NCBI GenBank assembly: GCA_009777735.1
Contig: WRLF01000004.1
Location: forward strand, 62,001-126,000
DNA length: 64,000 bases
Source of the DNA: Treponema sp.
GTDB taxonomy: Bacteria > Spirochaetota > Spirochaetia > Treponematales > Breznakiellaceae
Reading direction: 5' to 3'
In this document: in pieces, positions 23,779 through 45,588 of the stretch
How the letters are laid out: every line of letters begins with the position of its first letter
How positions within the stretch are numbered: position 1 is the stretch's first letter
Notes under the pieces: generated by a model
The model's input: the letters and a program-made list of their open reading frames with translations, nothing else
The model's database searches: none
Told to the model about the DNA's origin: nothing
Position numbers and translations under genes: made by a program

Positions 23779-26700
23779 ATGATGTTAACAAAAGAACTGC
23801 ACAGGAGAATTGACAAAATACTGCATGAACTGGGATCACTAAGATATTCGCAGGAAATTCCCGTTTGTGATTACACACTATCAAAAGAAAAACCCCAGGA
23901 AGGTCCCCGTGAATACCATTGGTTTGAGAAAGACATTGTTATCCTTCCCGAATTTGACGGTAAATGTGTTTTTTTTAATATGCAAACCGGCATTGAGGGA
24001 GGACATGATGATTTTTCTTTTTATTTAAACGGAAAATTTATTCAGGGAATAGACAGGGAGCATAATGAAGTACTGCTTGAAGAAACAGCGTATGCCGGAC
24101 AGCGTTTTAACATTAAACTGTGCGCCTATACCGACAATCAGACTTTTCACCAAAAAATGAAAACATCTCTAAAAGTTCTTGATCGAAAAACAAATACACT
24201 GTATTACGATTTAAAAACACCGTATGATGTTGCTGTTATTCACCCGCATGACAGCCGTGAATTTATTACCATCATTCACGTACTCAATGAAACCATTAAT
24301 CTGCTTGATCTTCGGGTTGTTTTTTCCGGTGAATATTATGCATCTATTGACAGGGCGCAGGAGTATATTACACGGGAATTTTATAAAAAAAGCTGCAATG
24401 TAAACAACTCTGAAATAATTCATTGTGTCGGCCATACCCACCTTGACGTGGCATGGTTGTGGCCATTGGCTGTAACCGAGGATAAAACCCTGCGTAGTTT
24501 TGCCACAGTGTTACAACTGATGGACGAATATCCTGAGTATCTTTTTATGTCAAGCCAGCCTCAGCTGTATCAATATGTCAAAAAAAACTCACCTGAACTC
24601 TATGAACGGATAAAGGAATGTATTGCTTCGGGCAGGTGGGAAGCGGAAGGCGGCATGTGGCTTGAAGCGGACTGCAACATTTCATCGGGCGAGGCGCTTA
24701 TCCGGCAATTTGTCCACGGAAAAAAGTTTTTCCGGGAAGAATTTGGAAAAGACAATATTATTTTATGGCTTCCCGATGTATTCGGCTACTCCGCTGCTTT
24801 GCCGCAAATTATGGATAAATGCGGCATCAAATATTTTATGACAACAAAGATAAGCTGGAATGAATTTAATAAAATGCCCTACGACACTTTTATGTGGGAA
24901 GGCATTGACGGGACAAGTATTCTTACCCATTTTATTTCCACAAGGGGCATTGTCGATGACGGCACGTGGTATTTCGGAAGCCCCAATCAGAATATAACGA
25001 CATTTAATTGCATCATGAGCGCCAATGAGATTATGGGTACGTATGTACGATACCAGCAAAAAAATCTTAACCGGGAATTGCTGTGTTCATTCGGCTGGGG
25101 CGACGGCGGAGGCGGACCGACAAGAGAAATGCTGGAAATGCAAAGGCGTTTCGCACAAGGCATCCCCGGCTGCCCGGTAACAAAGATGGGTACGGCCCGT
25201 TCTTACTTTGAAAAACTGGAAAAAGATGTTTCAAACAATAAATACCTGCCTTCATGGACGGGAGAACTGTATTTTGAATTTCACAGAGGCGTTTATACTA
25301 CAATGGGGCGCAATAAAAAATACAACCGTACATCGGAGATTACCTATCAGAATGCCGAGAATATTGCCGTAATGGATTCAATTTTTAACGCATCCGAATA
25401 CCCGGCACAGACATTATTTGAAGGCTGGGAAACCATTCTGCTTAATCAGTTCCATGATATTCTTCCCGGTACATCAATTAAAGAAGTATACGAAGACAGT
25501 AATGAACAATATGAAGCGGTGCTGAAAACAGGCAATGAAATACTGCACGGCAAACTGGCAAATCTTACAAATAACATAAACACACCGGCCCAGTCGCTTA
25601 TTGTGTTTAACCTCAACGGCATGGAATGTGATGCGCCTGTTTCTTTTGAAACATCATTGAAAAACCCTGTTGTATGCAGCGGCGAAAAAGATATCACCGC
25701 CCAGCATGACGGCAGCGGAAAAGCGGTATTTATAGCGCAAGGCGTTCCGGCAAAAGGCTGGAAATCATTCAGCTTAAAAGAAGGGCAAACTGCCGCAGAA
25801 GCGCACTCAATTAAAATTTCCGCTGACTGCATGGAAAATATATATTTTGCAATAAAACTCAACAGCAAGGGGCAATTTTCTTCGATTTACGATAAAACAG
25901 CGAATCGAGAATTACTGCCCGCAGGTCAATGCGCCAATGTAATAATGTCCTATGAAGATAAACCATGCGGCGGCGATGCATGGGATATAAACCATTTTTA
26001 TACTGAACAGTCATGGGAAATAGACCAGATAGAATCCATATCCGTTACGGCGCACGGGCTGGTATATGCGACACTGCGCATTGATCGAAAATACCTCAAT
26101 TCAACCATTACGCAGTATATCACCATGTATGCCGGTATACCGCGAATTGACATTGGTTATGATATTGACTGGAAAGAAAAACAAATTCTTGTAAAATCCC
26201 TTTTTCCGTTTGATATAAATACCGATGAAGCAGCATTTGACATTCAATTCGGCAATGTCAAGCGTAAAATACATCAGAATACTTCATGGGATGCGGCAAG
26301 GTTTGAAGTGTGCATGCAAAAATGGCTTGACGTATCGGAAGAAGGGTACGGTCTGAGCATACTTAACGATTGTAAATACGGTGTAAGCATTCAGGATAAA
26401 ATTATTGGTCTTACCATGCTCAGATCTACTACCTCTCCGAATCCCGATGCTGACAGGGAACGTCATGTTTTTTCGTATTCGCTGTATCCCCACAGTGAAG
26501 GCTGGCGGGAAGCAGGAACAGTACAGCAGGCAGCTTTTTTCAACAACCCCATGATCGCAGCGGTCAAGGAAAATACCGGCGGCACCATGCAAAATAATTT
26601 TTCCCTTGTTACCTGCGATAGTGAGAATGTCATTGTTGAAACAATAAAACAGGCCGAAGACGGCAGCGGCATTATTCTGCGGCTTTATGAATGCCATAAC

Positions 26701-26862
26701 CGGCGCACTGCTGCCAGGCTGGAATTCGGCATTGCGCTTAAGTCAGTGTGTGTATGCAATATGCTCGAAGAGGAAGAAACGCCGATTAAAACTGAAAACG
26801 GGAATTTAGTAAAACTTACTGTTAAACCGTACGAAATCGTAACACTGAAGATTAAGGTATAA
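23779..26862 (+). CDS. Alpha-mannosidase, GH38 (copy 1)
   Basis: This is a 1027-residue GH38 enzyme without a signal peptide, so it is probably cytoplasmic and acts on imported mannosides. Zinc ligands are in GHTHLDVAW (His 219, His 221, Asp 223), and the nucleophile is Asp 333 in LPDVFGYSAALPQI. A third metal or active-site histidine region is NQFHDILPGTSI. The order is N-terminal extension, catalytic domain (~210-480), middle three-helix domain and C-terminal beta-sandwiches. CAGGAG precedes the ATG. It retains zinc hydrolysis of alpha-mannosidic bonds and is followed after 1 bp by a related but divergent gene. Confidence 0.92.
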   Translation: MMLTKELHRRIDKILHELGSLRYSQEIPVCDYTLSKEKPQEGPREYHWFEKDIVILPEFDGKCVFFNMQTGIEGGHDDFSFYLNGKFIQGIDREHNEVLLEETAYAGQRFNIKLCAYTDNQTFHQKMKTSLKVLDRKTNTLYYDLKTPYDVAVIHPHDSREFITIIHVLNETINLLDLRVVFSGEYYASIDRAQEYITREFYKKSCNVNNSEIIHCVGHTHLDVAWLWPLAVTEDKTLRSFATVLQLMDEYPEYLFMSSQPQLYQYVKKNSPELYERIKECIASGRWEAEGGMWLEADCNISSGEALIRQFVHGKKFFREEFGKDNIILWLPDVFGYSAALPQIMDKCGIKYFMTTKISWNEFNKMPYDTFMWEGIDGTSILTHFISTRGIVDDGTWYFGSPNQNITTFNCIMSANEIMGTYVRYQQKNLNRELLCSFGWGDGGGGPTREMLEMQRRFAQGIPGCPVTKMGTARSYFEKLEKDVSNNKYLPSWTGELYFEFHRGVYTTMGRNKKYNRTSEITYQNAENIAVMDSIFNASEYPAQTLFEGWETILLNQFHDILPGTSIKEVYEDSNEQYEAVLKTGNEILHGKLANLTNNINTPAQSLIVFNLNGMECDAPVSFETSLKNPVVCSGEKDITAQHDGSGKAVFIAQGVPAKGWKSFSLKEGQTAAEAHSIKISADCMENIYFAIKLNSKGQFSSIYDKTANRELLPAGQCANVIMSYEDKPCGGDAWDINHFYTEQSWEIDQIESISVTAHGLVYATLRIDRKYLNSTITQYITMYAGIPRIDIGYDIDWKEKQILVKSLFPFDINTDEAAFDIQFGNVKRKIHQNTSWDAARFEVCMQKWLDVSEEGYGLSILNDCKYGVSIQDKIIGLTMLRSTTSPNPDADRERHVFSYSLYPHSEGWREAGTVQQAAFFNNPMIAAVKENTGGTMQNNFSLVTCDSENVIVETIKQAEDGSGIILRLYECHNRRTAARLEFGIALKSVCVCNMLEEEETPIKTENGNLVKLTVKPYEIVTLKIKV

Positions 26863-26863
26863 C

Positions 26864-29572
26864 ATGGAAAAAACATTGCTGTATTACATAGACGGGTATC
26901 ATGGCGGTATAAGAGGCCACATGCCGCTGGGGTGCTGGCGGGACATTCTTGAAGCACTCAAAAACTGCCCGCAATGGAAGCTGGGCATTGATGTAGAGCC
27001 GGTCTCATGGGACTTTTTAAAGATGCGTGATCCGGCAGCGTATGACGAGTTACGCGAAATGATCCGCGATCAATCCATCGGTTCCCGCATTGAAATGGTA
27101 GCGGGCAGTTATGCCCAGCCATACGGGTGGATCACGGACGGCGAAAGCAATATCCGGCATCTGACAATGGGTATAAATACTTTAAAAAAACATTTTCCCT
27201 GGATTGAAATAAAAACGTATGCGGTACAGGAACCGTGCTGGACAAGCGCAATGCCGCAGATACTTAAATCACTGCGTTTTGAACAAGCGGTACTGAAAAA
27301 CCCGTCCACTGCCTGGGGCGGATACAGCGCCGGTTTTAACGCGGAAGTTTGTTTATGGGAAGGCCCTGACGGTACGCAAATCCCCATGGTGCCGCGTTAC
27401 GCCTGTGAAGAACTAAAAAATGTATTTGAAACAGAATCGGTCTACGGCGATAAGGATTTTGCCGAAAAGTGCATTGCCAACGGAATCCCCCGCCCCGCCG
27501 GAATGTATTTTCAGGATTTAGGCTGGCCTGCCAGACCCAGAATGAAAAACAAACCCGGTTATGAAGGTACATTTTTTCCCGATTATCTGGAATACACAAC
27601 ATGGCGGGAATATTTTGAAACCATCGCCGGACAGCCGGAAGCAATATGGAATGTATCGCAGGAAGTTTTTCAGGGAGCGCTTCCCTGGGGTGAGCGTGTT
27701 CTTGTTCGCATGGCCCGCCAGGTACGGCGCGGTGAAGCGGCATTACTGAACAGTGAACGCATATACGCACTCTCACAATTTTTGGGCGGCGAGACTGACG
27801 ATGATTCCCGGTCACGGCTGGATGAAGCATGGGGCCACCTGTTAATGACCCAGCACCATGACGCATGGATATGCGCCGGAGCGGGACCGGGCGAACGCAA
27901 CTGGGCGTGGAAAACATCCGCTCAAATATACGCCGCAGAAAGGCTGACCGATCCCATTAAACGAAAAGCCCTGTATGAAATCGGTAAATTTACCTGCCCT
28001 GTTACCGTTAAAGATCACGCATCCGAGATGATCAGCGTGTTCAACCCTCTTGCCAGGCCGGAGATACGAACAGTATCGGCGGAAATTACCAGCGCGCGCG
28101 GAATCGAAAGTTTTGATGTGTATGACGGCGATGAAAAAATTACCAGCCAATATATCCCCACCCGAAAACATGAAGACGGCAGTAAAAACGCCGGTTACCT
28201 GACGTTTAACGCACCACTACCGGGCTTTGGCGCAAAGGCATTCAGAATAGAGCCTTCAACAAAAGCAGAACCCCGCGATAAACCGCTGGATATTTTCATG
28301 GGGGAGCGAATTTATTTTAAAATAATGCAGGCATTAGCGCCCATTCCCATACAGCAATTGCCGCCCGAAGCGCCGCAGATACAGACAAAATGTTCTCAGG
28401 GGAATGAACATCTGCTTTCTGCGGAAGATAAAAATGATTCAGCCTCGGCAGCAGTTACAGACAGTTTCGCATATCTTGAAAATACATTTTACCGCATAAC
28501 ATTTGATTTACAGGCCGGCGGAACCATATCTTCACTGTACGATAAACGCCGCGGTGCGGAAGTAACCGATCAAAAAAACGAACGTAAATTCAACGAATAC
28601 AGCGGCTACTTTATCAATGAAGCCCGGTATATTTCAAGTACAGAACAGGCAGCACAGGCAACGGTCATGGCCTGCGGTCCGGTGTACGCGGCATTGCTGA
28701 TACAGGGCCGCATAGGCGAATCTCATTTTACGCAAATGATCAGCGTAACGGAAGGCGATGTAAAAATTAATGTCAGGGTGATTTTCCATTTCCCGGAAAA
28801 AACATACATAGGCGAACCGCATGAAATCCCGTTTGAGAATAACCGGACAGAAGGATACCGCTCCCACCATGACGGCAGGTATAAACTCAACGCCTGGTTC
28901 CCCACTTTGTTTGAGCAAAAACAATTGTATAAAGATGCCGCTTACGATGTTTGTAAAAGCAATCATGAAAACACCCATTTTAAACACTGGAATGAAATCA
29001 AACACAATATCCTGATTGGCTGGGTGGATGTTTCAGACGGCGAGCAGGGCCTGGCAATAATGGCGGATCATACCACCTCATATACCCACGGAGACGGCTA
29101 TCCGCTGGGGCTGACGATGGCATGGGGCTGGGACGCAGGATTCTGGTGGCGCAGGCGGCAGTTAAAGGGTTTTCACGAACTGGTATATGCAATTATGCCC
29201 CATGCGGGTGATTGGCGCACCGGCGATATCTGGCATGAACATCAGAAGATGCTGCATGTTCCCATGGCGCAGCGTGTAACAGGCCGCGTACCCGCTCTGC
29301 AGCACATCGAACTGATCGCAGTGGACGGACAGGTGCAGATGAGCGCCGCATATCTTGATGCCGAGGATCGAATGTTGGTCCGCCTGTTCAATCCGGGCAG
29401 GGCGGTGTGCGCAAAGATAGCAATTGACGAAAAAGCAGCCGGCCTTGTGGAATTGGTCGAACTTGACGGTCTTGCGATATGCCGCCCGGATACGGTACGG
29501 GAGAACGGTAAAGCTATTGTAAACATTGATATGAGAGAATTCGGTATTTGCACATTGCGCATAACCCGGTAG
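26864..29572 (+). CDS. Divergent GH38-like protein, altered active site
   Basis: This is a 902-residue cytoplasmic-type protein starting 1 bp after the mannosidase stop with a weak ribosome binding site, so it is probably translationally coupled. The general layout is that of GH38: MPQIL motif, NGIPRPAGM, MTQHHDAWI equivalent to NQFHD, and beta-sandwich C terminus. The expected metal motif (H.HLD) is replaced by YIDGYHGGIRGHM at residues 8-20, and the LPDVFG nucleophile motif by QEPCWTSAMPQI (Glu 123). It therefore either uses different catalytic residues or a different substrate. GH38-type N-terminal hits are expected. Exact chemistry is unknown. Its 3' end is 6 bp from the convergent glycyl radical enzyme gene. 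Confidence 0.7.
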   Translation: MEKTLLYYIDGYHGGIRGHMPLGCWRDILEALKNCPQWKLGIDVEPVSWDFLKMRDPAAYDELREMIRDQSIGSRIEMVAGSYAQPYGWITDGESNIRHLTMGINTLKKHFPWIEIKTYAVQEPCWTSAMPQILKSLRFEQAVLKNPSTAWGGYSAGFNAEVCLWEGPDGTQIPMVPRYACEELKNVFETESVYGDKDFAEKCIANGIPRPAGMYFQDLGWPARPRMKNKPGYEGTFFPDYLEYTTWREYFETIAGQPEAIWNVSQEVFQGALPWGERVLVRMARQVRRGEAALLNSERIYALSQFLGGETDDDSRSRLDEAWGHLLMTQHHDAWICAGAGPGERNWAWKTSAQIYAAERLTDPIKRKALYEIGKFTCPVTVKDHASEMISVFNPLARPEIRTVSAEITSARGIESFDVYDGDEKITSQYIPTRKHEDGSKNAGYLTFNAPLPGFGAKAFRIEPSTKAEPRDKPLDIFMGERIYFKIMQALAPIPIQQLPPEAPQIQTKCSQGNEHLLSAEDKNDSASAAVTDSFAYLENTFYRITFDLQAGGTISSLYDKRRGAEVTDQKNERKFNEYSGYFINEARYISSTEQAAQATVMACGPVYAALLIQGRIGESHFTQMISVTEGDVKINVRVIFHFPEKTYIGEPHEIPFENNRTEGYRSHHDGRYKLNAWFPTLFEQKQLYKDAAYDVCKSNHENTHFKHWNEIKHNILIGWVDVSDGEQGLAIMADHTTSYTHGDGYPLGLTMAWGWDAGFWWRRRQLKGFHELVYAIMPHAGDWRTGDIWHEHQKMLHVPMAQRVTGRVPALQHIELIAVDGQVQMSAAYLDAEDRMLVRLFNPGRAVCAKIAIDEKAAGLVELVELDGLAICRPDTVRENGKAIVNIDMREFGICTLRITR

Positions 29573-29578
29573 GTTTAT

Positions 29579-31735
29579 TTACATTGCCAGCCAGCGGTCA
29601 ACAACCTGCTGACGGTACTCCGGTGACAGCGAACGAAAGAACGCGCTGTACCCGGTAACCCGCACGACCAGGTCGGGAAACTTCAGCGGATCTTTGTGCG
29701 CCGCAAGTATTTTTTCTTTTGATACCACATTAATGTTAACAAGCGTGCCGCCCATTTTATTATGCGCCCTGATATACGCCTTGATATTTTCAATGCCGCC
29801 GGTTTCTTTTGCAAAAGCAGCGTCAATGTCGGCCTGCAGGGGCGTAGAATTCCCCCAGCCGGACTGCACGCGGGCAACAGCATTTGCTTTTGCGCTGGGG
29901 GCGGAACTGCCGCCGGGGAGAAAACCCGGATCGGGATCGGCGCTGTGGGAAATTGGCTCTCCGGCAAAACGCCCGTTGGGAGTTGCTCCCAGGTTTTTAC
30001 CGTGCTTGTAAACATCACCGTGTGAAAAAATGCCGGGCAGTACGGTAAAACCGTCCTTTGTCGGCGTATTGCGCATCAAATCGGTGTACAGACGGGATAG
30101 ACGAAGGGCATAGTCATCGGCAGGAGTATTTCCCGCACCGTACTGGGGAACATTTTTTAACATGAGCCGTATTTCTTCATAACCCCGGTAATTTGCATCA
30201 AGCACTTTTTTGAGTTGCTCCATACTCAGACGTTTTTCCCGCACAACACGCTGTTCAATGGCGGCAAAAGAATTGGCGGCAGTCGCCAGGGAAACGGCAT
30301 CGCAGGCAAAATTGACAATATCCACGCCGCCTGCGGACATATCTATGCCGCGTTCAATGGGGCCGTGACAGAGCAGGTTTAACACAAGCTCCGGTTTATT
30401 ATGGCGTTTATACTGTACATGCCAGTCAACGCCGTCCTTTATGACCTGCACAATGGTTTTCAGATGTTCTGCATACAAGTCCCAGAGTCTTTCCATGGAA
30501 TGTTCGCCCGGTGATGAGAGAAGATCGTCAAGGGCAAGCAACAGCGGTTTTGCCAGATCAACACGGGTCACATCCTGCAGGGTATATTCAATACCGGGAA
30601 GGGCTGTCCAGTTGCAGCCGACTTTGGAACGCATCCGTGCAAGAGCCGCCGGATATCCATTGCGCATATACCCTTTGTCCAGCCCGTTCGACAGGGAATA
30701 ACACACCCCCGTTCCGTCTTCAAGCAGGTTTTTAACTGCCTGGGTAAACAGCGCATCATTGGTATTTTCATGAATACGCAAAGCAAGATTATTGGGGATT
30801 CCCAAACGATGCTGCCCTTCAAGCACAAGGAACGAAAGAGCATTTGATACGTCCGAACCGTCAACGGGATTTTGCCCGCCAATCATGTGGTAATGCGGGT
30901 CATTAAAAAACATTGAGGCAAAATACCAGACCGCTTCTTCATCATCGCATAACAATCCGTTTTCCCGGTCGCGTTGGTAGTAGGGGTACAATAACGTGTC
31001 AATTTCCTGCCCGGCGCCGCCGTTAAAATACATGCGGTCAATGTCATCGTACCATGAAATCCACTGCACTGCTTCGCGAAGGGTGCGCGGCGCCCCTTCG
31101 CACAGGTAATCGTTCATGGCAGCAAGGTTAAGAAGGTTTTGTCTCTCAAAAGAATCCGAAACAGCCGCCGCTGTATTTCTGCAATGATCCGCCGTGCGTT
31201 TTATGTACCGCTGCAATGCCTTTACGAGGCGTTCTTCGCCGTCATAAAATTCATTTGATTCTGAGCTTGCGGGAAGACGCGCGCGGCATGTGCGGATTTT
31301 TGCAAGGAGGCCGCCCCACCCCAGATCAAGGCCGATAGCCAAATCCGGCGCAGAATGATTCATCGCATAATGGCCGCGTGAAGTGATGTTATACTTTTGC
31401 AGTAGGGGTTCTGCGCATTCAAACAGATGCTCGGGCCGCCAGCCTTCATCCATGTACGGCAAATTGCCTATCCAGCACCCGGCAACGGCACTTTTGGGGT
31501 GGGCATAACAGGGATGGGCATCAAGATAGTCCGCAAAAACGCGGCTAACTGCCTCCATGCCGGTACATTTTTTGCAGGCTGGATCCTCAAACCGCTGCAC
31601 CGGGCGGGTTAGATCAAGGGGTATCCACCCATGGTCATCGGTGTCGTAGCTGCCGCCTCGGCGGCGGAGTTTTTCTTCGTTGAATTCCAGCTTTTGACGG
31701 TGCAGAGCGTCAATGCGATCCCGGTAACTCGCCAT
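29579..31735 (-). CDS. Glycyl radical enzyme of unknown substrate
   Basis: This is a 718-residue glycyl radical enzyme. The C-terminal radical motif RVTGYSA has the radical glycine at Gly 695 (codon 29651-29653). The thiyl cysteine is Cys 374 (codon 30614-30616) in the motif KVGCNWTALPG; the 321-residue Cys-Gly spacing fits the family. Dehydratase and decarboxylase members mostly have GCVE here, with Glu as catalytic base. This one has GCNW, so the base is missing and the known subclasses do not fit. It is shorter than pyruvate formate-lyase (~760) and lacks the paired CC. The enzyme should be cytoplasmic and oxygen-sensitive, activated by the radical SAM protein encoded upstream (26-bp overlap). 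The substrate is unknown; the neighbouring dehydrogenases suggest a sugar derivative. Confidence 0.88.
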   Translation of the reverse strand: MASYRDRIDALHRQKLEFNEEKLRRRGGSYDTDDHGWIPLDLTRPVQRFEDPACKKCTGMEAVSRVFADYLDAHPCYAHPKSAVAGCWIGNLPYMDEGWRPEHLFECAEPLLQKYNITSRGHYAMNHSAPDLAIGLDLGWGGLLAKIRTCRARLPASSESNEFYDGEERLVKALQRYIKRTADHCRNTAAAVSDSFERQNLLNLAAMNDYLCEGAPRTLREAVQWISWYDDIDRMYFNGGAGQEIDTLLYPYYQRDRENGLLCDDEEAVWYFASMFFNDPHYHMIGGQNPVDGSDVSNALSFLVLEGQHRLGIPNNLALRIHENTNDALFTQAVKNLLEDGTGVCYSLSNGLDKGYMRNGYPAALARMRSKVGCNWTALPGIEYTLQDVTRVDLAKPLLLALDDLLSSPGEHSMERLWDLYAEHLKTIVQVIKDGVDWHVQYKRHNKPELVLNLLCHGPIERGIDMSAGGVDIVNFACDAVSLATAANSFAAIEQRVVREKRLSMEQLKKVLDANYRGYEEIRLMLKNVPQYGAGNTPADDYALRLSRLYTDLMRNTPTKDGFTVLPGIFSHGDVYKHGKNLGATPNGRFAGEPISHSADPDPGFLPGGSSAPSAKANAVARVQSGWGNSTPLQADIDAAFAKETGGIENIKAYIRAHNKMGGTLVNINVVSKEKILAAHKDPLKFPDLVVRVTGYSAFFRSLSPEYRQQVVDRWLAM

Positions 31736-32651
31736 AATTATTCCTTACTCTAATGTGCCGAGCTGCAAGGCGTTCAAGGGTTTCCATACGCTCTTTCTCC
31801 GGCGCCCGGAAATGATGGTATTCCTGCTCCAGAATATCGTATTTTATTTTAGCCAGACTGTGGCATGGTATGAGCATATAGTACTGCAAGTTCTGTAACC
31901 CTGCAAGCATCTGTGCAATTGCACCGATTTCATCTTCAGAATCATTCACACCGCTGACACAGGGAGTGCGGACAATAAACGGTACGCCGGCTGCATCAAG
32001 GCGCTTGAGGTTATCCAGCGCAAGGGAACGATCGGCATGAATGTAATCGCTATAAATAGCGGCATTGATGCCTTTAATATCATACATAACCATGTCAAGA
32101 AATGGCACCAACCGATCAAGCATGGCAAAGGGGTAAAAACCGGCTGTTTGCAGATTTGTATGAATGCCTTCATCACGGAGGCGCTTAAGCAGGGTTTCGC
32201 AGAAATCTCCCTGCAAAACAGGCTCGCCGCCGGAAAGGGTCACACCGCCGCTGCTTTCACGGTAATACGGTTTATCGTCCAATACCTGACGCAGGACTTC
32301 ATCGGCATCCATTTCTTTACCGGACATTACCAGAGCGTTGCTGTGACACTCCAGAGAGCCGCGGTTACCGATACGGGTACATGTACCGCAGTTAATGCAG
32401 CGGTCTGCATAATACTGAACCTGCGGGCGCATGGAAAATGATTCAGGGTTGTGACACCAGGCGCAGCGGGCGGAGCATCCTTTGAGAAAAACCGTTGTGC
32501 GGATGCCCGGCCCGTCATGAACACAGAAACGCTGGATGTCAAAAACAATACCGGTCAAGGTGAAAGGCCCATCACTGCACTGCTTCGGCCATGGCTGCAA
32601 TATTTTCCGGCGGCACATTGGGCAGAATTGATTCATGGCTTGGCGACACAA
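31710..32651 (-). CDS. Glycyl radical enzyme activase (radical SAM)
   Basis: This is a radical SAM protein with the SAM-cluster motif C59-S-A-R-C63-A-W-C66, preceded by the activase signature VHDGPGIRTTVFLKGC. A second iron-sulfur cluster motif is CINCGTC at 85-91 with C102, as in the dehydratase-type activases. It should install the glycyl radical on the neighbouring enzyme, using SAM and reduced flavodoxin or ferredoxin. The ATG at 32651 lies inside the upstream UroD-like gene; the homologous part begins at about residue 32, so the true start may be the in-frame TTG at 32558. Good matches to GGEPVLQGDF and IRTPCVSGVNDSEDEI are visible. Confidence 0.92.
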   Translation of the reverse strand: MCRQAMNQFCPMCRRKILQPWPKQCSDGPFTLTGIVFDIQRFCVHDGPGIRTTVFLKGCSARCAWCHNPESFSMRPQVQYYADRCINCGTCTRIGNRGSLECHSNALVMSGKEMDADEVLRQVLDDKPYYRESSGGVTLSGGEPVLQGDFCETLLKRLRDEGIHTNLQTAGFYPFAMLDRLVPFLDMVMYDIKGINAAIYSDYIHADRSLALDNLKRLDAAGVPFIVRTPCVSGVNDSEDEIGAIAQMLAGLQNLQYYMLIPCHSLAKIKYDILEQEYHHFRAPEKERMETLERLAARHIRVRNNYGELPGSH

Positions 32652-33582
32652 TGAAACTGGGTCCGAACAGGTTTTTAAGCCGTTTTACTTCATTGCGGAC
32701 ATCATCAGGCCCGCAAAAAGGAAGAAGATGCTGAGTATCAACGCCGCCCATAAAAATAATTTTCCCGTTATATTTTTCCGCAAGGGATTGCGCGTCCATA
32801 TTTTTTGCCAACGCCTGAATCGGATGCAGTATATCAACTCCCGATTCAATAAAACGGGGGATAACCCTGTCTATGGCTCCGCAGGAATGCAGAATAACTT
32901 TATACCCATAACGGCGTGCCTGATCGATAAATTCATTGAAGTAACGCATGATATACCGGTCAAAGTGTTCCAGAGAAACGAGCAGATCAAGCTGGCTTCC
33001 AAAATCATTGCCAAAGAAAAAACCGTCAATTTTATTTCCTGCCAGCTTAAATAGTTTTTCATTTGCCGCAAGGTAAAAATCCGTAATATGGCGTGTAACG
33101 GCATCAACAACATCGGGATCGGTGTGCATTTTAATGAAATACTGTTCCATGCCGAAAAAATCACAGGCAACATGAAAAAAACTACTCCATGTGCCGCTTA
33201 ACACCGCCTGCCCCGCCTGTATGGTTTTATCGATTTCACGCAATGTTTCGCCGAAGTCAAGGCTTTGCGGATCCTGCCAGGGAAAATCTTCAACTTCGGC
33301 AGGATCTTCTGTCTCTGCAAAAATGCCGTTTTGATTCAGTGAACTGCGATCCCTGCCGCCAAGGGTGTCAAACATTGGTTCATTTTTGACCCAGGCATGG
33401 TGATTTTCCGGTCTGACCCAGCGGCAGCATGATCCAAGCTTAAGTCCCAGCTCAAAATCATTGTTCACTCCAAAATAGGCATACAAATTTTCAATACTGG
33501 CATGGTTTGGTTCGCCGTGCCAGAAACCGCATGTTTCGGATTTGCCTGCAGCAATTGCATTAAATCGTTCTTTTCCTGTCAT
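32572..33582 (-). CDS. UroD/MtaA-like protein 2
   Basis: This is a 336-residue protein of the uroporphyrinogen decarboxylase superfamily. The zinc motif of the MtaA/CmuA methyltransferase branch is visible as H232-S-C234 in LHSCGAIDRV, while true UroD proteins lack it. This points to a zinc-dependent methyl or alkyl transfer role, not haem synthesis. It overlaps the preceding UroD-like gene by 4 bp (ATGA) and the activase gene follows. Neighbouring glycyl radical and dehydrogenase genes suggest a catabolic role. No corrinoid-binding protein is encoded in the window, so the methyl acceptor is unknown. Confidence 0.85.
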   Translation of the reverse strand: MTGKERFNAIAAGKSETCGFWHGEPNHASIENLYAYFGVNNDFELGLKLGSCCRWVRPENHHAWVKNEPMFDTLGGRDRSSLNQNGIFAETEDPAEVEDFPWQDPQSLDFGETLREIDKTIQAGQAVLSGTWSSFFHVACDFFGMEQYFIKMHTDPDVVDAVTRHITDFYLAANEKLFKLAGNKIDGFFFGNDFGSQLDLLVSLEHFDRYIMRYFNEFIDQARRYGYKVILHSCGAIDRVIPRFIESGVDILHPIQALAKNMDAQSLAEKYNGKIIFMGGVDTQHLLPFCGPDDVRNEVKRLKNLFGPSFIVSPSHESILPNVPPENIAAMAEAVQ

Positions 33583-34631
33583 GAATGACCTCTTACAGTT
33601 TTTACTATACTCCGGTATGTTTCCAGGCTGACGGTATTGGGAATGGAATGATCCGATGAAAAAATATATCCCCCGTCTTTTTTTACAATGGGAAGTATTT
33701 CTTCGATGTACGGAAGAATTTTTTCCGGTTGATCCATCAGGAGGGCGTCGGCGCCGCCATGTAACACGAGCTTATCGCCAAAATCCCGTTTAAGGGTTTT
33801 AATGTCCATCCCGGCTTTAATTTCAATAGGGTTTAGGCAGTCAAGGCCGATTTCAACAAGCTGAGGCACACGCTGCATAATATTCCCGCAGGAGTGAAGG
33901 TGGGTTTTAATTCCTCGGTTGCGGGCCCAATCAATGGCTTTTTTGTGGAAAGGCTGCAGAACATCCTCATAAATTTTATTGGAAAAAAAGAGATGGTCTT
34001 TGTATCCCATATCATCAAACCAGAATATGCTGTCAAAATGATAACCTTCATCCCAGATCATATCAAAAAGAGCAATGGACATATCAAGATATGTTTCAAA
34101 TATATCTTTAACCCATTCCGGTTCTTCCATGAGCGCGTATATTATGGGTTCAAAACCGGTCATCCATGAATGGGTAACATCGAAACCAAACCAGAACAAG
34201 CCCTGCACCCAGCGGCCTTCCGATTTCCAGCGGGGATAATTCGTTTTGAGATAATCCCAGTCAATCCGGTCCCGGTTAGGCTTCATACGGGCTTTTGCCT
34301 TTTCCCAGGATGCCGGATCGGTAACGGTATAATCAAGAAATTCAGGCGTAGAATCGGGGATCTTAAAATTCTTAAGGGTAACGCCCCATTCGGTAGTGGA
34401 AATAACAAAACGGTCGTTTTCTTCGATTATTTTCCGTTCAAACCGGGGGCTGTTATCCGCCTGAATTGTTTCAATTTTATCAACATCAAAAAAATCCCGC
34501 CAATCCGCATCGGGCGGCATTCCTTCCTGTTTCCAGCGGGCCAGTGTTCCTGCCCAGGGATGGTCTGCTATGGGAATCCTGTCCGCTTCCCGATGTTCAA
34601 AAGCAAGCGTCAACCGTTCTTTTGTGGTCAT
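33579..34631 (-). CDS. UroD/MtaA-like protein 1
   Basis: This is a 350-residue protein of the UroD superfamily with the zinc motif H246-S-C248 in HLHSCGNIMQRV, so it belongs to the MtaA/CmuA-like branch. The N terminus (TTKERLTLAFEHREADRIPIADHPW) is the standard opening of that branch. It is only moderately similar to its neighbour at 32572-33582, so the two are old paralogues with probably distinct roles or a heterodimer. It overlaps the upstream oxidoreductase gene by 4 bp (ATGA), showing tight operon organisation. Confidence 0.85.
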   Translation of the reverse strand: MTTKERLTLAFEHREADRIPIADHPWAGTLARWKQEGMPPDADWRDFFDVDKIETIQADNSPRFERKIIEENDRFVISTTEWGVTLKNFKIPDSTPEFLDYTVTDPASWEKAKARMKPNRDRIDWDYLKTNYPRWKSEGRWVQGLFWFGFDVTHSWMTGFEPIIYALMEEPEWVKDIFETYLDMSIALFDMIWDEGYHFDSIFWFDDMGYKDHLFFSNKIYEDVLQPFHKKAIDWARNRGIKTHLHSCGNIMQRVPQLVEIGLDCLNPIEIKAGMDIKTLKRDFGDKLVLHGGADALLMDQPEKILPYIEEILPIVKKDGGYIFSSDHSIPNTVSLETYRSIVKTVRGHS

Positions 34632-35602
34632 AACACGACAATACGCTGTTCTTTATCGGAGATGTAGGCGTTTTCCAGCAGTTCGGTAAGGGCAATGCCT
34701 TTGTCCAGATCAAAGGGAATGGGCGAGCCTTTAATAATACCATCCAGCCAGAGGCGTATTGATACATCCAGGGGATCAGGGAGTTTTGCGGGGATAAACC
34801 AGCCGTCCTTGAACCGGTTCGAGCGCACTTTCACTTCGCCGCCTACTGAAGTAACGGCTCCTTCTGTACCCAGCAGTTCAAAACACTGAGCCTGGAAAGG
34901 GGAAATAAATGAAGTTTCCAGTACGGCAATGGCCTTGTTTTCAAACTCAACAACGGAAACGGCATTATCATCCACGGATTGCGGCGCATAGTTATTGTTG
35001 AACATGGAAACAATGCGTTTGGGCTTGCCCAGTAAATATGCCGCTGTGTACATGGGGTGGCAGCCAAGGTCCATCATGGCGCCGCCGCAGGCTTTTTGTG
35101 CATCATACCAGTATTCGGGAAGCCAGGCATTAACCGATCCGTCATGTGCCGTCCTCATGCGCATATAGTGGATTTTCCCCAGCCAGCCTTCATCTATGGC
35201 CTGTCTGCAGTATTGCGCAATGGAAGTTGTCAGGTGCGGGTGGGAAATGCAGAATTTGACGCCGCTTTTTCTGACTGCATCGGCAATTGCTTTACAGTCC
35301 TCCACTGTTGGGGCAAGCGCTTTTTCGGTAAAAATATGCCTGCCTGCATTCGCTGCCAGAATCATCACCCGGCGGTGATCGCTCGTCGGCGCATCGACAA
35401 CAACCGCATCCACATCGCTGCGCGCAAGGGCTTTTTCCAGATCAGGCTCAAATGGCACACCAAGCTCTTTTGCCCAGTCCCCGCCGCGTTTTACATCGTC
35501 ATCCCAGACGCAGGATACTTTTGCATCCGGCTGGGCATTGATCGTTTTTGCATAGCCGTCGGCATGAACATGCCATTTAGACAGCATCAATACATTTACC
35601 AT
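34628..35602 (-). CDS. Gfo/Idh/MocA family oxidoreductase 2
   Basis: This is a 324-residue protein with the Gfo/Idh/MocA fold: an N-terminal nucleotide-binding part (NVLMLSKWHVHADGY, with the glycine motif altered), DVDAVVVDAPTSDHR, HIFTEKALAPTVEDCKAIADAV and the C-terminal GGAMMDLGCHPMYTAAYLLG typical of the substrate domain. The EKP motif of the family is EKA here. It should oxidise or reduce a sugar or cyclitol with NAD(P). It follows its paralogue after 14 bp and overlaps the UroD-like gene. The substrate is unknown. Confidence 0.88.
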   Translation of the reverse strand: MVNVLMLSKWHVHADGYAKTINAQPDAKVSCVWDDDVKRGGDWAKELGVPFEPDLEKALARSDVDAVVVDAPTSDHRRVMILAANAGRHIFTEKALAPTVEDCKAIADAVRKSGVKFCISHPHLTTSIAQYCRQAIDEGWLGKIHYMRMRTAHDGSVNAWLPEYWYDAQKACGGAMMDLGCHPMYTAAYLLGKPKRIVSMFNNNYAPQSVDDNAVSVVEFENKAIAVLETSFISPFQAQCFELLGTEGAVTSVGGEVKVRSNRFKDGWFIPAKLPDPLDVSIRLWLDGIIKGSPIPFDLDKGIALTELLENAYISDKEQRIVVL

Positions 35603-35616
35603 ATATGACTCCCGTT

Positions 35617-36717
35617 TTATATTTTTGGTATTTTTATTTCAACTTCTTTTCCCAGCTTTGCTGAACGGTATATCCCGTCACAAATTGCCTGGTTGTACAG
35701 AATTTGCTCTCCGGGAACGGGCGCCGGGCCGTTTTTGTGAATTGCATCGACAAATGTCCTCATTTTGCCAAACCACATATCCATGGGTCTTTCGGAAGCA
35801 TAGGCGTTAAACGGGATGGTAGGCAGTACAACAGAATCGATGTGCTGTCCGTTGACATCGGTGTAATACATAATCCGCGATTCTTTGTTGTGGCTTTCAA
35901 ACCCCGTTGTTACCTTGATTGCCCCTTCCGTGCCAAGCCAGAGCGTATCCCCCAGTGTGTCGGCATGCATGGCCCAGGACTGTTTAAACACAAAAGTAAC
36001 ATCTCCTTCAAGGCGCACAAAAGCTACAGAAAAATCATCCACTTCAAATGTTTTTGCGCCCGGCCAGTATTTTGGATTTTTTCCAAAATAGTTTGTTGCC
36101 ATGGCCGATACCGTCAGAGGTTTTGGATAACCAATGGCATTCAGGCATTGGTCGATGGAATAACAGCCAATGTCGCCCAGGCAGCCAAATCCGGCCTTGT
36201 CTTTTTCCACAAAAGTACCGCCGGGAATGCCCCGCCTGCGCCCGCCGCCGGATTGCATATAATACACTTTCCCGATTGCGCCGGAGCCAATCAGATTGTC
36301 CACCTTTTGATGCATAAAATCATGGCGCGGCTGAAAACCAATGGTGAGAATTTTTTTTGCTTTACGCGCGGCGCGTACCATGTCTACGCCTTCCTTGAGG
36401 GTAAACGACATGGGTTTTTCACACAAAACATGTACCCCTGCTTCAAACAGGACAATGCAGCATTCCGCATGAGTTGTATTGTATGTACAGACACTTGCGC
36501 CGTCCATCTGCACATTTTTTACCATATCCTTTACATGCTCAAACGCAGGAGCCCCGATAAGATTGTATTTATCCAAAAATTCCCGCGCCCTGCCCGGAAT
36601 GATGTCGCATGCACCGACAACCTCAACATCATTAAAGTCCATATAATGCTTCATGTGCGCATGGGCAATGCCCCCGGCTCCGACAATTCCGATTTTTAAT
36701 TTCTTTTTTTGTTTCAT
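35617..36717 (-). CDS. Gfo/Idh/MocA family oxidoreductase 1
   Basis: This is a 366-residue NAD(P)-dependent sugar dehydrogenase-like protein with a good Rossmann motif (GIVGAGGIAHAHMKHYMD), CEKPMSFTLKEGVDMV (EKP, Lys implicated in hydride transfer) and GFGCLGDIGCYSIDQCLNAIG. It is the first gene of the six-gene operon. GGAGGAG lies before the ATG, and the 83-bp gap separates it from the divergent GH2 gene. It probably acts on a hexose, inositol or sugar acid. It is complete. Confidence 0.92.
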   Translation of the reverse strand: MKQKKKLKIGIVGAGGIAHAHMKHYMDFNDVEVVGACDIIPGRAREFLDKYNLIGAPAFEHVKDMVKNVQMDGASVCTYNTTHAECCIVLFEAGVHVLCEKPMSFTLKEGVDMVRAARKAKKILTIGFQPRHDFMHQKVDNLIGSGAIGKVYYMQSGGGRRRGIPGGTFVEKDKAGFGCLGDIGCYSIDQCLNAIGYPKPLTVSAMATNYFGKNPKYWPGAKTFEVDDFSVAFVRLEGDVTFVFKQSWAMHADTLGDTLWLGTEGAIKVTTGFESHNKESRIMYYTDVNGQHIDSVVLPTIPFNAYASERPMDMWFGKMRTFVDAIHKNGPAPVPGEQILYNQAICDGIYRSAKLGKEVEIKIPKI

Positions 36718-36800: not shown

Positions 36801-38576
36801 ATGAAATGTTATCAAAACGGTTATCCGCGACCCCAGTTTGTACGGGATCGGCAATCATGGGAAAACCTTGACGGCCCGTGGGACTTTTCTTTTGATGATA
36901 AAAATGAGGGTATCGCAAAAAAATGGTTTAATACATTTCCGGCAGGCCGGGAAATCATTGTTCCGTTTTGCCATGAAAGCCCCGCCAGCGGTATTGGAGA
37001 CAGTTCCCGGCATGATGTGGTCTGGTACCGAAAAACCCTGACGTTACATCCCAGGCAAAAACAGGGCAGCCGGGTTATACTCCATTTTGAAGGATCCGAT
37101 TATCATACAAAGCTGTGGGTCAACGGTTCTTTTGCAGGCAGCCATGACGGCGCTTATGCACGTTTCTCTTTTGATATAACCTCTTATGTAAAACCGGGAA
37201 ACAATACCCTTACGGTAAGGGCCGAAGACTCTCCTGACATTTCCCAGCCCCGAGGCAAACAAAGGTGGAAAAACGAAAGTTACGGGTGCTGGTATGTTCA
37301 AACAACCGGTATCTGGAAAACCGTTTGGCTTGAGTATGTAAACCCCAGCCATATTGCATCGGTAAAAATGACACCGTTTCCGTCACGGGGAATCCTTGAT
37401 ATTGAGGCTGAAATTGAATCGCCGTGCGAAGACATGGAACTGGAAGTACAAATCAGCTTTAAGGATTTAATGGTAACAAAACTAACGGCAGATGCCGGAG
37501 CAAAGCGCCTTTGTTTATCCGCCGGTGTTTTTTCCACCGCTGTCTGTGAATGGGGGCTGCATACCTGGTCGCCCGGAAATCCCAACCTGTATGATATTTC
37601 CTTTACGTTAAAAAAGAGCGGTAAAATTATTGATCAGGTTCTTTCATACTTTGGCATGAGGGAAATACGTATTGACGGGCGGTATATACTGCTCAACGGA
37701 CACCCCCTGTATCAGCGGCTCATTCTCGATCAGGGCTACTGGAAAGACAGCCATTTGACGCCTCCCGGCGAACAGGCTCTTGTTACCGATATTGATAAAA
37801 TACTTTCCGCCGGTTACAACGGCGTCCGCAAACACCAGAAAGTTGAAGATGAACGGTTTCTGTACTGGGCTGATGTAAAGGGCCTTCTTGTATGGAGCGA
37901 AATGGCCAGCGCTTATGAATTCAACGATGACGCCGTAAGCATGTTTACGAGGGAATGGATGGAAGTGGTAAAACAGCATTATAATCACCCCTCCATTATT
38001 ACATGGACACCTTTTAATGAATCATGGGGGATCAGTTCAATTAAAAACCGCGCCGACCAGCAGGCATTTACCCAAACGATTTATTATCTTACGAAATCCT
38101 ATGACCAATACCGCCCGGTGATCTGTAATGACGGATGGGAACATACCGTCTCGGATATTATAACCCTCCATGATTATGAAGAAAAAGGGGATGATTTTTT
38201 TGCCCGTTACGGTGAACATCTTGAGGAAATCCTCAATAACCGGTTGTACCCGAATCTTCACCGAGCCTGCTTTGCTTCCAGCCATACATACCGGGGTCAG
38301 CCGATAATTATCAGCGAATATGGCGGCATTGCCTTTGACGATGGTCAGGGCTGGGGTTACGGCAATAAAGTGACAACAAAAGAAGACTTTATAAAGCGTT
38401 TTGATGCAATTACCACAGCAATAAAAAAAGTTAACGGTTTATGCGGTTTTTGCTATACCCAGGTTACCGATGTTCAACAGGAGATAAACGGTATTATGGA
38501 CATGGATCGCAATTTTAAAATCGATCCGGATATCCTGCGAGAAATTAATGAACGAAAAGTGAACAAACTGGTATAA
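36801..38576 (+). CDS. GH2 family beta-glycosidase
   Basis: This is a 591-residue GH2 enzyme without a signal peptide. The sugar-binding jelly roll (~20-180), immunoglobulin-like domain (~185-290) and catalytic barrel (~290-590) are in the usual order. The acid/base is Glu 407 in TPFNESWG and the nucleophile is Glu 506 in IISEYGG. Members of this short GH2 group include beta-galactosidase, beta-glucuronidase and beta-mannosidase activities; the substrate cannot be chosen from sequence. AGAGG lies before the ATG. It is divergent from the glycyl radical operon, suggesting shared control from the 36718-36800 gap. Confidence 0.9.
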   Translation: MKCYQNGYPRPQFVRDRQSWENLDGPWDFSFDDKNEGIAKKWFNTFPAGREIIVPFCHESPASGIGDSSRHDVVWYRKTLTLHPRQKQGSRVILHFEGSDYHTKLWVNGSFAGSHDGAYARFSFDITSYVKPGNNTLTVRAEDSPDISQPRGKQRWKNESYGCWYVQTTGIWKTVWLEYVNPSHIASVKMTPFPSRGILDIEAEIESPCEDMELEVQISFKDLMVTKLTADAGAKRLCLSAGVFSTAVCEWGLHTWSPGNPNLYDISFTLKKSGKIIDQVLSYFGMREIRIDGRYILLNGHPLYQRLILDQGYWKDSHLTPPGEQALVTDIDKILSAGYNGVRKHQKVEDERFLYWADVKGLLVWSEMASAYEFNDDAVSMFTREWMEVVKQHYNHPSIITWTPFNESWGISSIKNRADQQAFTQTIYYLTKSYDQYRPVICNDGWEHTVSDIITLHDYEEKGDDFFARYGEHLEEILNNRLYPNLHRACFASSHTYRGQPIIISEYGGIAFDDGQGWGYGNKVTTKEDFIKRFDAITTAIKKVNGLCGFCYTQVTDVQQEINGIMDMDRNFKIDPDILREINERKVNKLV

Positions 38577-43359: not shown

Positions 43360-45429
43360 CTAGGGCCGGTTGTCGGTAATATTACCGGTAATTGAGCCAA
43401 TAATATTGGCGTTGGGACCGATGGTTACATTTGCATTATTATTTTGCCTCACAGCAAAACCCGAGCCTGCTTTGAATACCGTGCCGCTGTTGATGGTTAC
43501 TGTTACTCCCTCGTTCTGACCTCCTCCGGCTCCTGCGTAAATGGTGTTACCACCGCCGGTATCGAGGTTTTCTATCCTGCCGCCATTCATGGTCATGGTA
43601 ACGCCTCTTTGTATACGTATTACGCCCCTCTCGTTGCCGTTATGGCGTCCTATTACATGAGCCGTCCCGCCTAAATTGAAAGTATGGATATTGCTCTCGT
43701 ACCGGATTACATTACAGCGGACGGTTCCTTCGATTCTGCCGCCGGTCAGGGTAAAAGTAGTTCCTGAGTTCTGGAAGAAGAGTAAACCTTCACCATCATT
43801 ATCATGACCACTTGTTATGGTTCCGCCGATGATTCTTACTGTTGCACTGCCGGATTCGATTTTCATTACCCTGCCACTTGGTGCTCTAAGATTGCCGCCG
43901 GAGATGGTTAAGTTTCCGGCTCCATCTACGATTCTCATCATAGCTTCACCACCTACATTAGAGAGATGTGAGCCGCCGGCGATATGTATGGTGGGGTTAC
44001 CGCGGAGCATTACCGTAGAAGCCTCACCACTACCCGTGTTTGTTATATCCGCTACGATAAGCAGGTTAACACCGTTCCTGCCGGTTATAATTCCGGCATT
44101 ATTCGCGTTTGTTTGTCCGCTAACTCTTCCGCTTATGGTTACCTGACCGCCCCAAGTATTGGCGCCTGAGCCGTTGGCAAATTCAATTGCTGAATTGCCG
44201 CCGCCTGAGAAAGTACCGACATTCAGAGTTGTTCCGCCGTCTCCAAGTTGAATGCCTACTGCGCCGGTGGAATGAGCCCGTATGGCATCAATTTGGGCCT
44301 GTATTGCAGCACCATCTGTTCCAATGGTTGTGCCGTCTTTTCGTACATTAAACCCGCCACCAGAGGCTGTGATGATGTAAGGGGTGGGGGTGGTAGCGGG
44401 GAACTCACGAATCAAGGTGGCAGTTGTTTGGGTCGTTGTTGTAGTACCAGGAGCCTCTCCATTGACAGTTCCGGTAAAGCCGCCGGTAATGATATTACCC
44501 GGCATTGCCGTAACGACTACCGTGGCAGTGTACGCAGTTGATGGTTCGAATGTAGCATGTGCCGGCGACCATGTTACGGCGGCAGTGTAGTTGTAGCCGT
44601 CAAATCCGGGAGACGTAACGGTAGTATCCGGTACGGCGCCTGTTATGGGCCACGTTACGCTGACACCGGCTATTTCAACATAACCAGGGTCTGTCTCGGG
44701 GAATGTATACGATAGGGTAATTATAACAGAACTATTTCTTGTTACCGTCACGCCGGTATTCGTCCCGTTAATTGTGATGACGGAATCCGGCATACCGATA
44801 AAGTTAAAGCCGGATGCTGCCGTTATGGTAACGGAGGCGGTGTACTCCATCTGCGGGAGAAATGCATCGGCAATTGCGGGAGACCATGTTATGGCGCTTG
44901 CGGTATACTGATTGCTCGTGAATGTTGCGTTGGTACTTGGCATCCTTTCCGTTACGGGAGCAGTAATTTGAAGGGTGACTGCAGTAACCGGTTCGGGTTC
45001 AGCGTCTGTTCTTTCAAAGTGATACCACAGGATAATGTAATTTCCCATGTTTATTTCTGTCCCTGCCGGGTCGTTATTGATGAGCGGTGTGGCGGTACCC
45101 AAAAATGTATAGTCTTCCTCCGCCGTAAGGGTAACGGTAGCCCTATATGCTGTTTCGGCGGCAAAAAGACCGCCGGTAACTTCAGGCTGCCATGTAATAT
45201 TACCGCTGGTATACTGGTTGCTGACTGTTGAAGCGGCGGCAACCGGCGCTTCACCGACAACCGGGACGGTAATAAAAATACTGATATCGAAAATAACATT
45301 GCCGGAAGGCGGCGGATCGGGATCAGGGTCAGGATCATGACCATTGTTAACAATGTCATCACATGCGGCGAATACGAATATCACAGCAAGGGCGATAATC
45401 AGGAACGACGCTTTGAATGTGTTTTTCAT
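43360..45429 (-). CDS. Surface lipoprotein: three Ig-like repeats plus beta-helix
   Basis: This is a 689-residue lipoprotein (lipobox FVFAAC). After a DPDPDPDPPP linker come three ~85-residue repeats with the shared pattern 'I..P..G..P.........Y....I.W.P.......TAYTATVT.TA..GF.F.G' (about 48-130, 150-235, 250-340). Residues ~350-420 form a module (PYIITASGGGFNVRKDG...IQLGDGGTTLNVG) also present in the protein at 50059. The remainder is a right-handed beta-helix with repeats such as TISGGNLRAPSGRVMKI. It is likely a surface adhesin or polymer-binding protein. It is the first gene of the operon, with AAGGAG before the ATG and a good promoter. Confidence 0.85.
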   Translation of the reverse strand: MKNTFKASFLIIALAVIFVFAACDDIVNNGHDPDPDPDPPPSGNVIFDISIFITVPVVGEAPVAAASTVSNQYTSGNITWQPEVTGGLFAAETAYRATVTLTAEEDYTFLGTATPLINNDPAGTEINMGNYIILWYHFERTDAEPEPVTAVTLQITAPVTERMPSTNATFTSNQYTASAITWSPAIADAFLPQMEYTASVTITAASGFNFIGMPDSVITINGTNTGVTVTRNSSVIITLSYTFPETDPGYVEIAGVSVTWPITGAVPDTTVTSPGFDGYNYTAAVTWSPAHATFEPSTAYTATVVVTAMPGNIITGGFTGTVNGEAPGTTTTTQTTATLIREFPATTPTPYIITASGGGFNVRKDGTTIGTDGAAIQAQIDAIRAHSTGAVGIQLGDGGTTLNVGTFSGGGNSAIEFANGSGANTWGGQVTISGRVSGQTNANNAGIITGRNGVNLLIVADITNTGSGEASTVMLRGNPTIHIAGGSHLSNVGGEAMMRIVDGAGNLTISGGNLRAPSGRVMKIESGSATVRIIGGTITSGHDNDGEGLLFFQNSGTTFTLTGGRIEGTVRCNVIRYESNIHTFNLGGTAHVIGRHNGNERGVIRIQRGVTMTMNGGRIENLDTGGGNTIYAGAGGGQNEGVTVTINSGTVFKAGSGFAVRQNNNANVTIGPNANIIGSITGNITDNRP

Positions 45430-45541: not shown

Positions 45542-45588
45542 CCTTGACAGGGATAACCCGAAACTGCAAGATAGAGGCCGGAGGCACT

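Follow-up and report, generated by a model that had tools for sequence, protein, structure and literature searches.

A Trp-containing catalytic loop marks a group of glycyl radical enzymes, one of them encoded in a glycan-use region of a Treponema sp.

Glycyl radical enzymes (GREs) perform chemistry that few other enzymes manage, and only a few of their known types act on carbohydrates. An activity of PflD and YbiW on anhydrosugar phosphates was reportedly described by Ma et al. in 2024. According to PMC12441222, these two enzymes open the ring of 1,5-anhydromannitol- and 1,5-anhydroglucitol-6-phosphate. Among sugar dehydrogenases, DgpA converts puerarin, and D3dgpA a variety of C- and O-glycosides, into 3-oxo products (PMC11239390). 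For the mlp clusters, the abstract of PMC10418091 points to methyl-sulfur or methyl-selenide metabolism. Here we analyse a stretch of 64,000 nucleotides from Treponema sp. (the window; contig WRLF01000004.1, positions 62,001 to 126,000, in our numbering G000:C4:62001-126000), in which a six-gene operon encodes a GRE, its activase (ACT), two MtaA-like proteins of the UroD family (MT1 and MT2) and two Gfo/Idh/MocA proteins (DH1 and DH2). The new element is the group of GREs to which the window enzyme belongs, here called the W-type group. G and L numbers are our own handles for genomes and loci.

The window protein matched PF02901 with 244 bits and PF01228 with 47.6 bits (cut-off 22.2), and both the GRE fold and an active-site Cys on a Gly-Cys loop are present. 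Similarly, the adjoining radical-SAM activase matched TIGR02494 with 279 bits (cut-off 174). The enzyme is the sole PFL-like match in its own genome (assembly G000, 2.69 Mb, 83% complete). The radical Gly, located in the sequence VVRVTGYSAFF, is present in all 15 of the 16 W-type rows that reach it, and H127 is likewise kept in each of the 15 rows that reach the His position. H127 and D388 (Cys+14) align with the His and Asp of a solved diol dehydratase, residues which we take to have catalytic roles. At position Cys+2, however, all 16 W-type members have a Trp in place of the eliminase Glu. In the same alignment this Glu is found in eight of nine other GREs of the family (L022 being gapped) and in PflD and YbiW of E. 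coli, while PflB has Ser. The loop of all 16 members reads GC[NHQ]W-x4-G-x-EY-x3-D, with C374, W376, G381, E383, Y384 and D388 of the window enzyme invariant, and therefore contains a conserved Glu-Tyr pair at Cys+9/Cys+10. W-type enzymes are thus GREs by all features tested that lack the eliminase Glu, and we infer sugar-directed radical C-O cleavage as their function.

The first-pass annotation knew of no characterised pathway with this gene set, and in the NCBIfam, profile and tree comparisons the GRE did not group with a characterised enzyme. The window GRE stayed under every NCBIfam cut-off for a named GRE, with 203 bits for TIGR01774 (cut-off 678) and 171 bits for the best equivalog (cut-off 1000). 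For the other 15 W-type members the NCBIfam comparison consists of best E-values only, and among nine other GREs of the family that were scanned as well, the first, for which cut-offs are given, passed none. Identity to solved GREs amounted to about 16-23%; according to PMC11528403, 40-50% identity falls short of the value by which most GREs of distinct function can be told apart. An unrooted tree with 28 GREs separated the 16 W-type sequences from the rest with a support of 100/99. Long stems (1.54 and 1.7) join the two W-type subgroups, so that their union is possibly in part a long-branch effect, but the catalytic loop common to both speaks for it. In the open-licence PMC literature, covered by titles and abstract openings and mostly without subscription papers, neither a GRE with a GCxW loop nor an operon combining GRE, UroD and Gfo/Idh/MocA genes was described.

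The six open reading frames (ORFs) of the operon all lie on the minus strand in the order DH2, DH1, MT2, MT1, ACT, GRE, and the coordinates, protein families, tight gaps and two ATGA junctions read by the first-pass annotation were confirmed. Pfam assigned PFL-like and Gly_radical domains to the GRE, Radical_SAM to the activase, URO-D to MT1 and MT2 and GFO_IDH_MocA to both dehydrogenases, and this assignment is far from chance since every match exceeds its curated cut-off. DH2 and DH1 are separated by 14 bp, DH1/MT2 and MT2/MT1 each overlap by 4 bp (the ATGA junctions), and activase and GRE overlap by 26 bp. The activase ORF as listed, starting from TTG at 32651, overlaps MT1 by 80 bp. This is probably an artefact of start choice, because an in-frame TTG at 32558, 13 bp past the MT1 stop, opens the sequence TGIVFDIQRF, which we take to resemble a typical activase start. 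Sequences like a ribosome-binding site (RBS) precede DH2 (GGAGG) and the GRE gene.

The idea of a single conserved six-gene system was not borne out. In 15 neighbourhoods of W-type GRE relatives that were fetched, the activase adjoins the GRE in 13, the two misses being a contig of 3.1 kb and a contig cut inside the GRE, whereas homologues of MT1, MT2, DH1 or DH2 were found in none of the 15 (phmmer, E 1e-5). Orthologues of MT1 and MT2 occur in other loci, and in the one-contig genome G028 they lie far from each other, MT2 at about 2.55 Mb and MT1 at about 3.42 Mb. Also, both the DH2-DH1 pair and MT2 are found again at sites that have no GRE. GRE and activase thus stay together, whereas neither the UroD-like nor the dehydrogenase genes accompany them, which makes the operon a composite of a radical pair (ACT, GRE) and a dehydrogenase/methyltransferase module. 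Of the two findings which the first-pass annotation had jointly set against its proposal, unconserved neighbours were encountered, yet the GRE did not fall among known enzymes.

Both dehydrogenases consist of a Rossmann domain and a Gfo/Idh/MocA C-terminal domain according to Pfam. The nearest solved relatives of DH2 are DgpA (7xr9, 155.5 bits) and DgpA1 (122.8 bits), with the best non-Dgp protein at 76.8 bits, whereas for DH1 two solved relatives were tied, 6nor with 81.6 bits and the 1,5-anhydro-D-fructose reductase 2glx with 81.0 bits. Outside its own genome DH2 has seven matches at 72-75% identity, of which six were fetched with context and the seventh is a fragment (G618). DH1 adjoins DH2 in five of these six loci, and the contig of the sixth ends at DH2. 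In contrast, DH1 was found beside none of the five DH2 homologues fetched among six at 47-56% identity. The six contigs with 72-75% matches carry GH38 (a glycoside hydrolase family) genes in two cases (G064, G285), a gene for a TIM-barrel protein similar to sugar isomerases in three (G064, G285, G614) and MT2 in one (G285); in G614, MT2 occurs with GH38 and GH4 on a contig other than that of DH2. As a separate observation, a 48% DH2 homologue (L140:2-1971, G064:C111) is immediately preceded by a truncated ORF that resembles GRE activases (92 bits to ACT), a further hint that a radical activase may stand beside members of the DH2 family.

For MT1 and MT2 the zinc motif H.CG, which had been read from the sequence, is present in both as HSCG. 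The UroD fold is indicated by Pfam and a model in the case of MT2 and by Pfam in the case of MT1, while searches of PDB sequences with MT1 and MT2 gave no match at 1e-3. The transfer of methyl groups to or from corrinoids, also proposed by the first-pass annotation, comes out of the present comparisons as plausible: the own genome encodes one free corrinoid protein (PF02607) and two RACo proteins, and RACo genes lie near MT2 orthologues in three of 12 contexts fetched, these three being the ones scanned for RACo. Apart from this, another candidate methyl-sugar cluster occurs in the same genome (L115:132-7422, G000:C33), where the free corrinoid gene lies between MtaA-like and UroD-like genes, with genes for a GH42 beta-galactosidase and, judged by eye, a ROK-like regulator nearby. 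Some genomes of the family, G028, G031 and G297 among them, seem to have undergone a strong expansion of UroD-family proteins, with up to 42 first-look candidates (G031). Clusters in G057 and G089 (L102:3567-9849 and L103) carry tandem UroD-like genes, and L102 also contains a DUF4432 (PF14486) gene, a PfkB kinase gene and, by eye, a short-chain dehydrogenase gene.

Carbohydrate genes were recognised by family scan around seven of the 15 W-type GREs, the neighbour genes scanned being a selection, so that the proximity to carbohydrate genes, noted by the annotation as a position next to glycosidases, extends to several relatives. In G017 a GH38-type gene followed by a GH92 gene runs tail-to-tail into the GRE gene, and in G285 a GH38-type C-terminal domain does so, with a glycerol kinase gene also nearby. 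Other neighbours are a NanA/KDG-aldolase-type protein (G064), an RbsA/AraG-type ATP-binding cassette (ABC) protein (G002), a ManD-like protein (G093), an L-fucose isomerase (G267) and an MglB-like binding protein (G078), and similar ABC genes were seen by eye in L034 and L036 of the outer group. A protein of 789 aa encoded beside a W-type GRE pair and ABC transporter genes (L029:4474-6843, G064) had no Pfam or NCBIfam match.

The explanation that we favour, with a probability of roughly 40%, is that two joined modules degrade modified sugars, which may be O-methylated, under anaerobic conditions, with the GRE acting as a radical C-O lyase; it builds on gene content, motifs, grouping, fold and the carbohydrate genes near several relatives, from which the reactions, the substrate and the methyl transfer are inferred. 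DH2, which is similar to DgpA, would oxidise a sugar or a glycoside, with C3 as the probable position, and DH1 would be its partner oxidoreductase. MT2 and MT1 might transfer the methyl group of an O-methylated sugar to a corrinoid protein encoded elsewhere, which RACo would keep active. ACT would install the glycyl radical on G695, leading to a thiyl radical on C374. Within a pocket that includes H127 and D388, this radical may abstract a hydrogen from a polyol derived from a sugar and so cause C-O cleavage by elimination. As Trp376 occupies the usual position of the Glu, E383-Y384 might take over its acid-base or substrate-binding work.

Several observations weigh against this explanation. 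Loss of the Glu at Cys+2 is unexpected for an eliminase, and the complete set of six genes was seen in this genome only. Six of the 15 GRE neighbourhoods (L002, L004, L010, L032, L033, L037) lacked any recognised carbohydrate gene, several of them being on short contigs; by eye, L002 contains a P-type ATPase gene and L033 a gene for an amino-acid-type ABC permease. The link between GH38 and the GRE is weak, because the GH38-type proteins of G017 and G285 are only about 20% identical to the window GH38 and both genomes belong to one genus. We have lowered our confidence in the favoured explanation on account of these six neighbourhoods and the weak GH38 link. The neighbours vary among relatives, and the W-type group may hold several activities. 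With regard to methyl transfer, the presumed third zinc ligand is a His throughout an alignment of 25 MT1- and MT2-type rows, MT1 and MT2 themselves included, whereas in MtaA-type proteins it is presumably a Cys, as carried by the MtaA-like protein of the own genome. Scores with TIGR01463 (MtaA/CmuA) amounted to only 39.7 and 37.6 bits (cut-off 235.4), no corrinoid or RACo gene occurs within the operon, and both RACo genes of the genome lie in neighbourhoods that look unrelated by eye. A bolder version, which we consider rather unlikely, would make the W-type GREs an undescribed class of radical carbohydrate lyases that use Trp and a relocated Glu-Tyr to cleave the C-O bond of a ring ether, a methyl ether or a hydroxyl group in substrates the size of a sugar, coupled here to corrinoid-dependent sugar demethylation as an oxygen-independent route for methylated or blocked glycans.

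Alternatively, the loss of the Cys+2 Glu might mark a change of reaction, the GRE being a C-C cleaving or decarboxylating enzyme for a keto-sugar or sugar acid. Among the solved relatives whose loops were compared, the arylacetate decarboxylase 7e7l (GCVLH) and E. coli PFL (CCVS) lack the Glu that the eliminases keep. In the profile list 7e7l reached 257 bits, near the lowest eliminases, and a ManD-like neighbour in G093 and an aldolase-type one in G064 hint at sugar acids. However, the profile scores to PFL and 4-hydroxyphenylacetate decarboxylase are clearly under those to eliminases, the window enzyme retains the His and the Cys+14 Asp, and it has no PFL-type double Cys. We regard this alternative as unlikely.

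The distribution of the W-type GRE bears on a further possibility. In 98 family genomes, near full-length relatives (37-67% identity) occur in seven besides the own genome and an outer group (28-32%) in G040, G048, G005 and G078. At E 1e-60, ten of 291 order genomes match, the own genome included, and the own genome is the sole match in 392 phylum genomes; the three samples overlap. A search of genome contigs gave one partial relative, on a Chloroflexi contig (48%), and viral contigs gave no match. Among the matches listed at E 1e-60 for 21 same-genus genomes besides the own, a W-type GRE of the outer subgroup was present in G267 only, and because of this patchiness an acquisition by transfer is likely. 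The GRE pair could thus be a transferred passenger acting on a downstream product of deoxyhexose breakdown (lactaldehyde or 1,2-propanediol, formed from rhamnose or fucose), in which case the layout would be recent and no joint pathway would exist. The unconserved operon, an L-fucose isomerase gene near the GRE of G267 (L035) and two rhamnosidase-family genes in the window are consistent with it, and the six neighbourhoods without carbohydrate genes, together with the weak GH38 link, have raised our confidence in it. It nevertheless seems improbable, as propanediol dehydratase keeps GCVE and it would be surprising if one reaction were served by two different active sites; moreover, no lactaldehyde reductase and no fuculose or rhamnulose aldolase was recognised among the 29 window proteins scanned.

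A third alternative involves 1,5-anhydro sugars. DH2 would give a 3-oxo-glycoside, elimination would release a hexose enediolone, DH1 would convert this to a 1,5-anhydrohexitol and the GRE would open the ring in the manner of PflD and YbiW. PflD ranks first both in the profile list and in the VIA list of fold comparisons, and the PDB titles 8id0 and 8id7 name 1,5-anhydromannitol- and 1,5-anhydroglucitol-6-phosphate as ligands. DgpABC chemistry, to whose DgpA DH2 is nearest, reportedly yields a hexose enediolone (PMC10539306), one of the two best solved relatives of DH1 is an anhydrofructose reductase, and the sugar-isomerase-like TIM-barrel genes lie by DH2-DH1 in three loci. However, glycerol dehydratase and propanediol dehydratase scored nearly the same as PflD in the profile list, the top rows of the VIA list are tied within 1 Z, and Foldseek ranks propanediol dehydratase first; the modelled fold, for which only 16 sequences were used, does not single out any one GRE type. 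In addition, the similarity of DH1 is generic, the catalytic Glu is missing, and neither a gene of the phosphotransferase system (PTS) among the window proteins scanned nor a kinase in the operon would supply a 6-phosphate. This alternative is decidedly unlikely. An assignment of the window GRE as CutC, HypD, HpsG/HpfG, a decarboxylase or PFL was rejected because of NCBIfam scores below the cut-offs, and in the case of PFL also for the missing Cys pair and a weak score.

The DNA probably comes from a gut-dwelling spirochaete of the Breznakiellaceae type. Family scans, which covered 29 distinct proteins of the window, depict a large region for glycan utilisation that holds GH38, GH78-type and GH2 genes besides several for ABC transporters (Table 1). 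A third gene of the GH38 alpha-mannosidase family adjoins a gene for a DUF1861 protein (370 bits) at 51248-55386. Two large proteins encoded among the glycosidases (45544-48684, 1046 aa, and 43360-45429, 689 aa) are almost without Pfam match, the former showing only weak similarity to rhamnosidases and GH42. A protein with an FGE-sulfatase domain (PF03781; 41534-42460) is encoded directly 5' of a rhamnosidase-family gene of the same orientation. An Rfam search of the window gave a tRNA as sole match, terminator-like sites are at chance level, and promoter-like sites are slightly above it (18 against 11.7, sd 2.8).

Table 1. Features of the operon and its flanks (positions refer to the window)
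Feature	Positions	Strand	Remarks and basis
DH2, Gfo/Idh/MocA dehydrogenase, 366 aa, first gene	35617..36717	-	PF01408 95 bits; RBS-like GGAGG
DH1, second Gfo/Idh/MocA protein, 324 aa	34628..35602	-	Pfam
MT2, UroD-fold MtaA-like protein, 350 aa	33579..34631	-	Presumed zinc ligands H246, C248, H328
MT1, second UroD-family MtaA-like protein, 336 aa	32572..33582	-	URO-D 78 bits; HSCG and SPSHE motif
ACT, radical-SAM GRE-activating enzyme	31710..32558	-	Likely TTG start 32558, 282 aa; TIGR02494
GRE, glycyl radical enzyme of W-type group, 718 aa	29579..31735	-	Pfam, alignment, tree
GRE catalytic loop C374-D388 (CNWTALPGIEYTLQD) with C374, W376, E383, Y384, D388	30572..30616	-	Invariant columns; contrast GCVE/GCIE
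GRE H127, aligned with conserved His of GRE diol dehydratases	31355..31357	-	Alignment
GRE G695, predicted radical glycine in VVRVTGYSAFF	29651..29653	-	Motif and alignment
Two GH38-family genes	23779..29572	+	Tail-to-tail with GRE gene; Pfam
GH2 glycosidase	36801..38576	+	Diverges from DH2, 83 bp between start codons

With its altered catalytic loop, the W-type group offers a clear target, as one enzyme, one activase and a short list of sugar substrates are concerned. In the operon, radical chemistry and methyltransferases of the UroD fold are brought together for the degradation of glycans, a combination not found in the literature searched here. If true, an anaerobic demethylation of sugars would explain how such anaerobes use methylated glycans without oxygen, and a GRE with an altered site may degrade sugars by a route yet undescribed.

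When compared with described systems, the window GRE resembles PflD and YbiW in the carbohydrate type of its presumed substrate, in the combination with a dedicated activase and in the positions of Cys, His and Gly, and PflD stands at the top of the profile list and, tied, of the VIA list. It differs by an identity of only about 20-22%, by GCxW-x6-EY in place of GCVE or GCIE, by a length of 718 aa as compared to 765 aa for E. coli PflD, and by a setting of ABC transporters and glycosidases without PTS genes (29 proteins scanned), whereas in E. coli frw genes accompany PflD. From the B12-independent glycerol dehydratase and the 1,2-propanediol dehydratase it is distinguished by Trp for the Cys+2 Glu and an additional conserved Glu-Tyr, and the operon contains no microcompartment or glycerol-pathway gene. 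MT1 and MT2 share with MtaA, MtbA, CmuA and the mlp clusters (Kountz and Balskus, PMC10418091) the UroD fold and H-x-C-G, and a corrinoid protein in the own genome and RACo near some MT2 orthologues add to the likeness; their third ligand is a His and not a Cys, the operon has no corrinoid gene, and, unlike in the mlp clusters, they occur in a sugar context. Finally, the DgpA-type glycoside 3-oxidoreductases are the nearest solved relatives of DH2, whose partner, in contrast, is a second Gfo/Idh/MocA protein.

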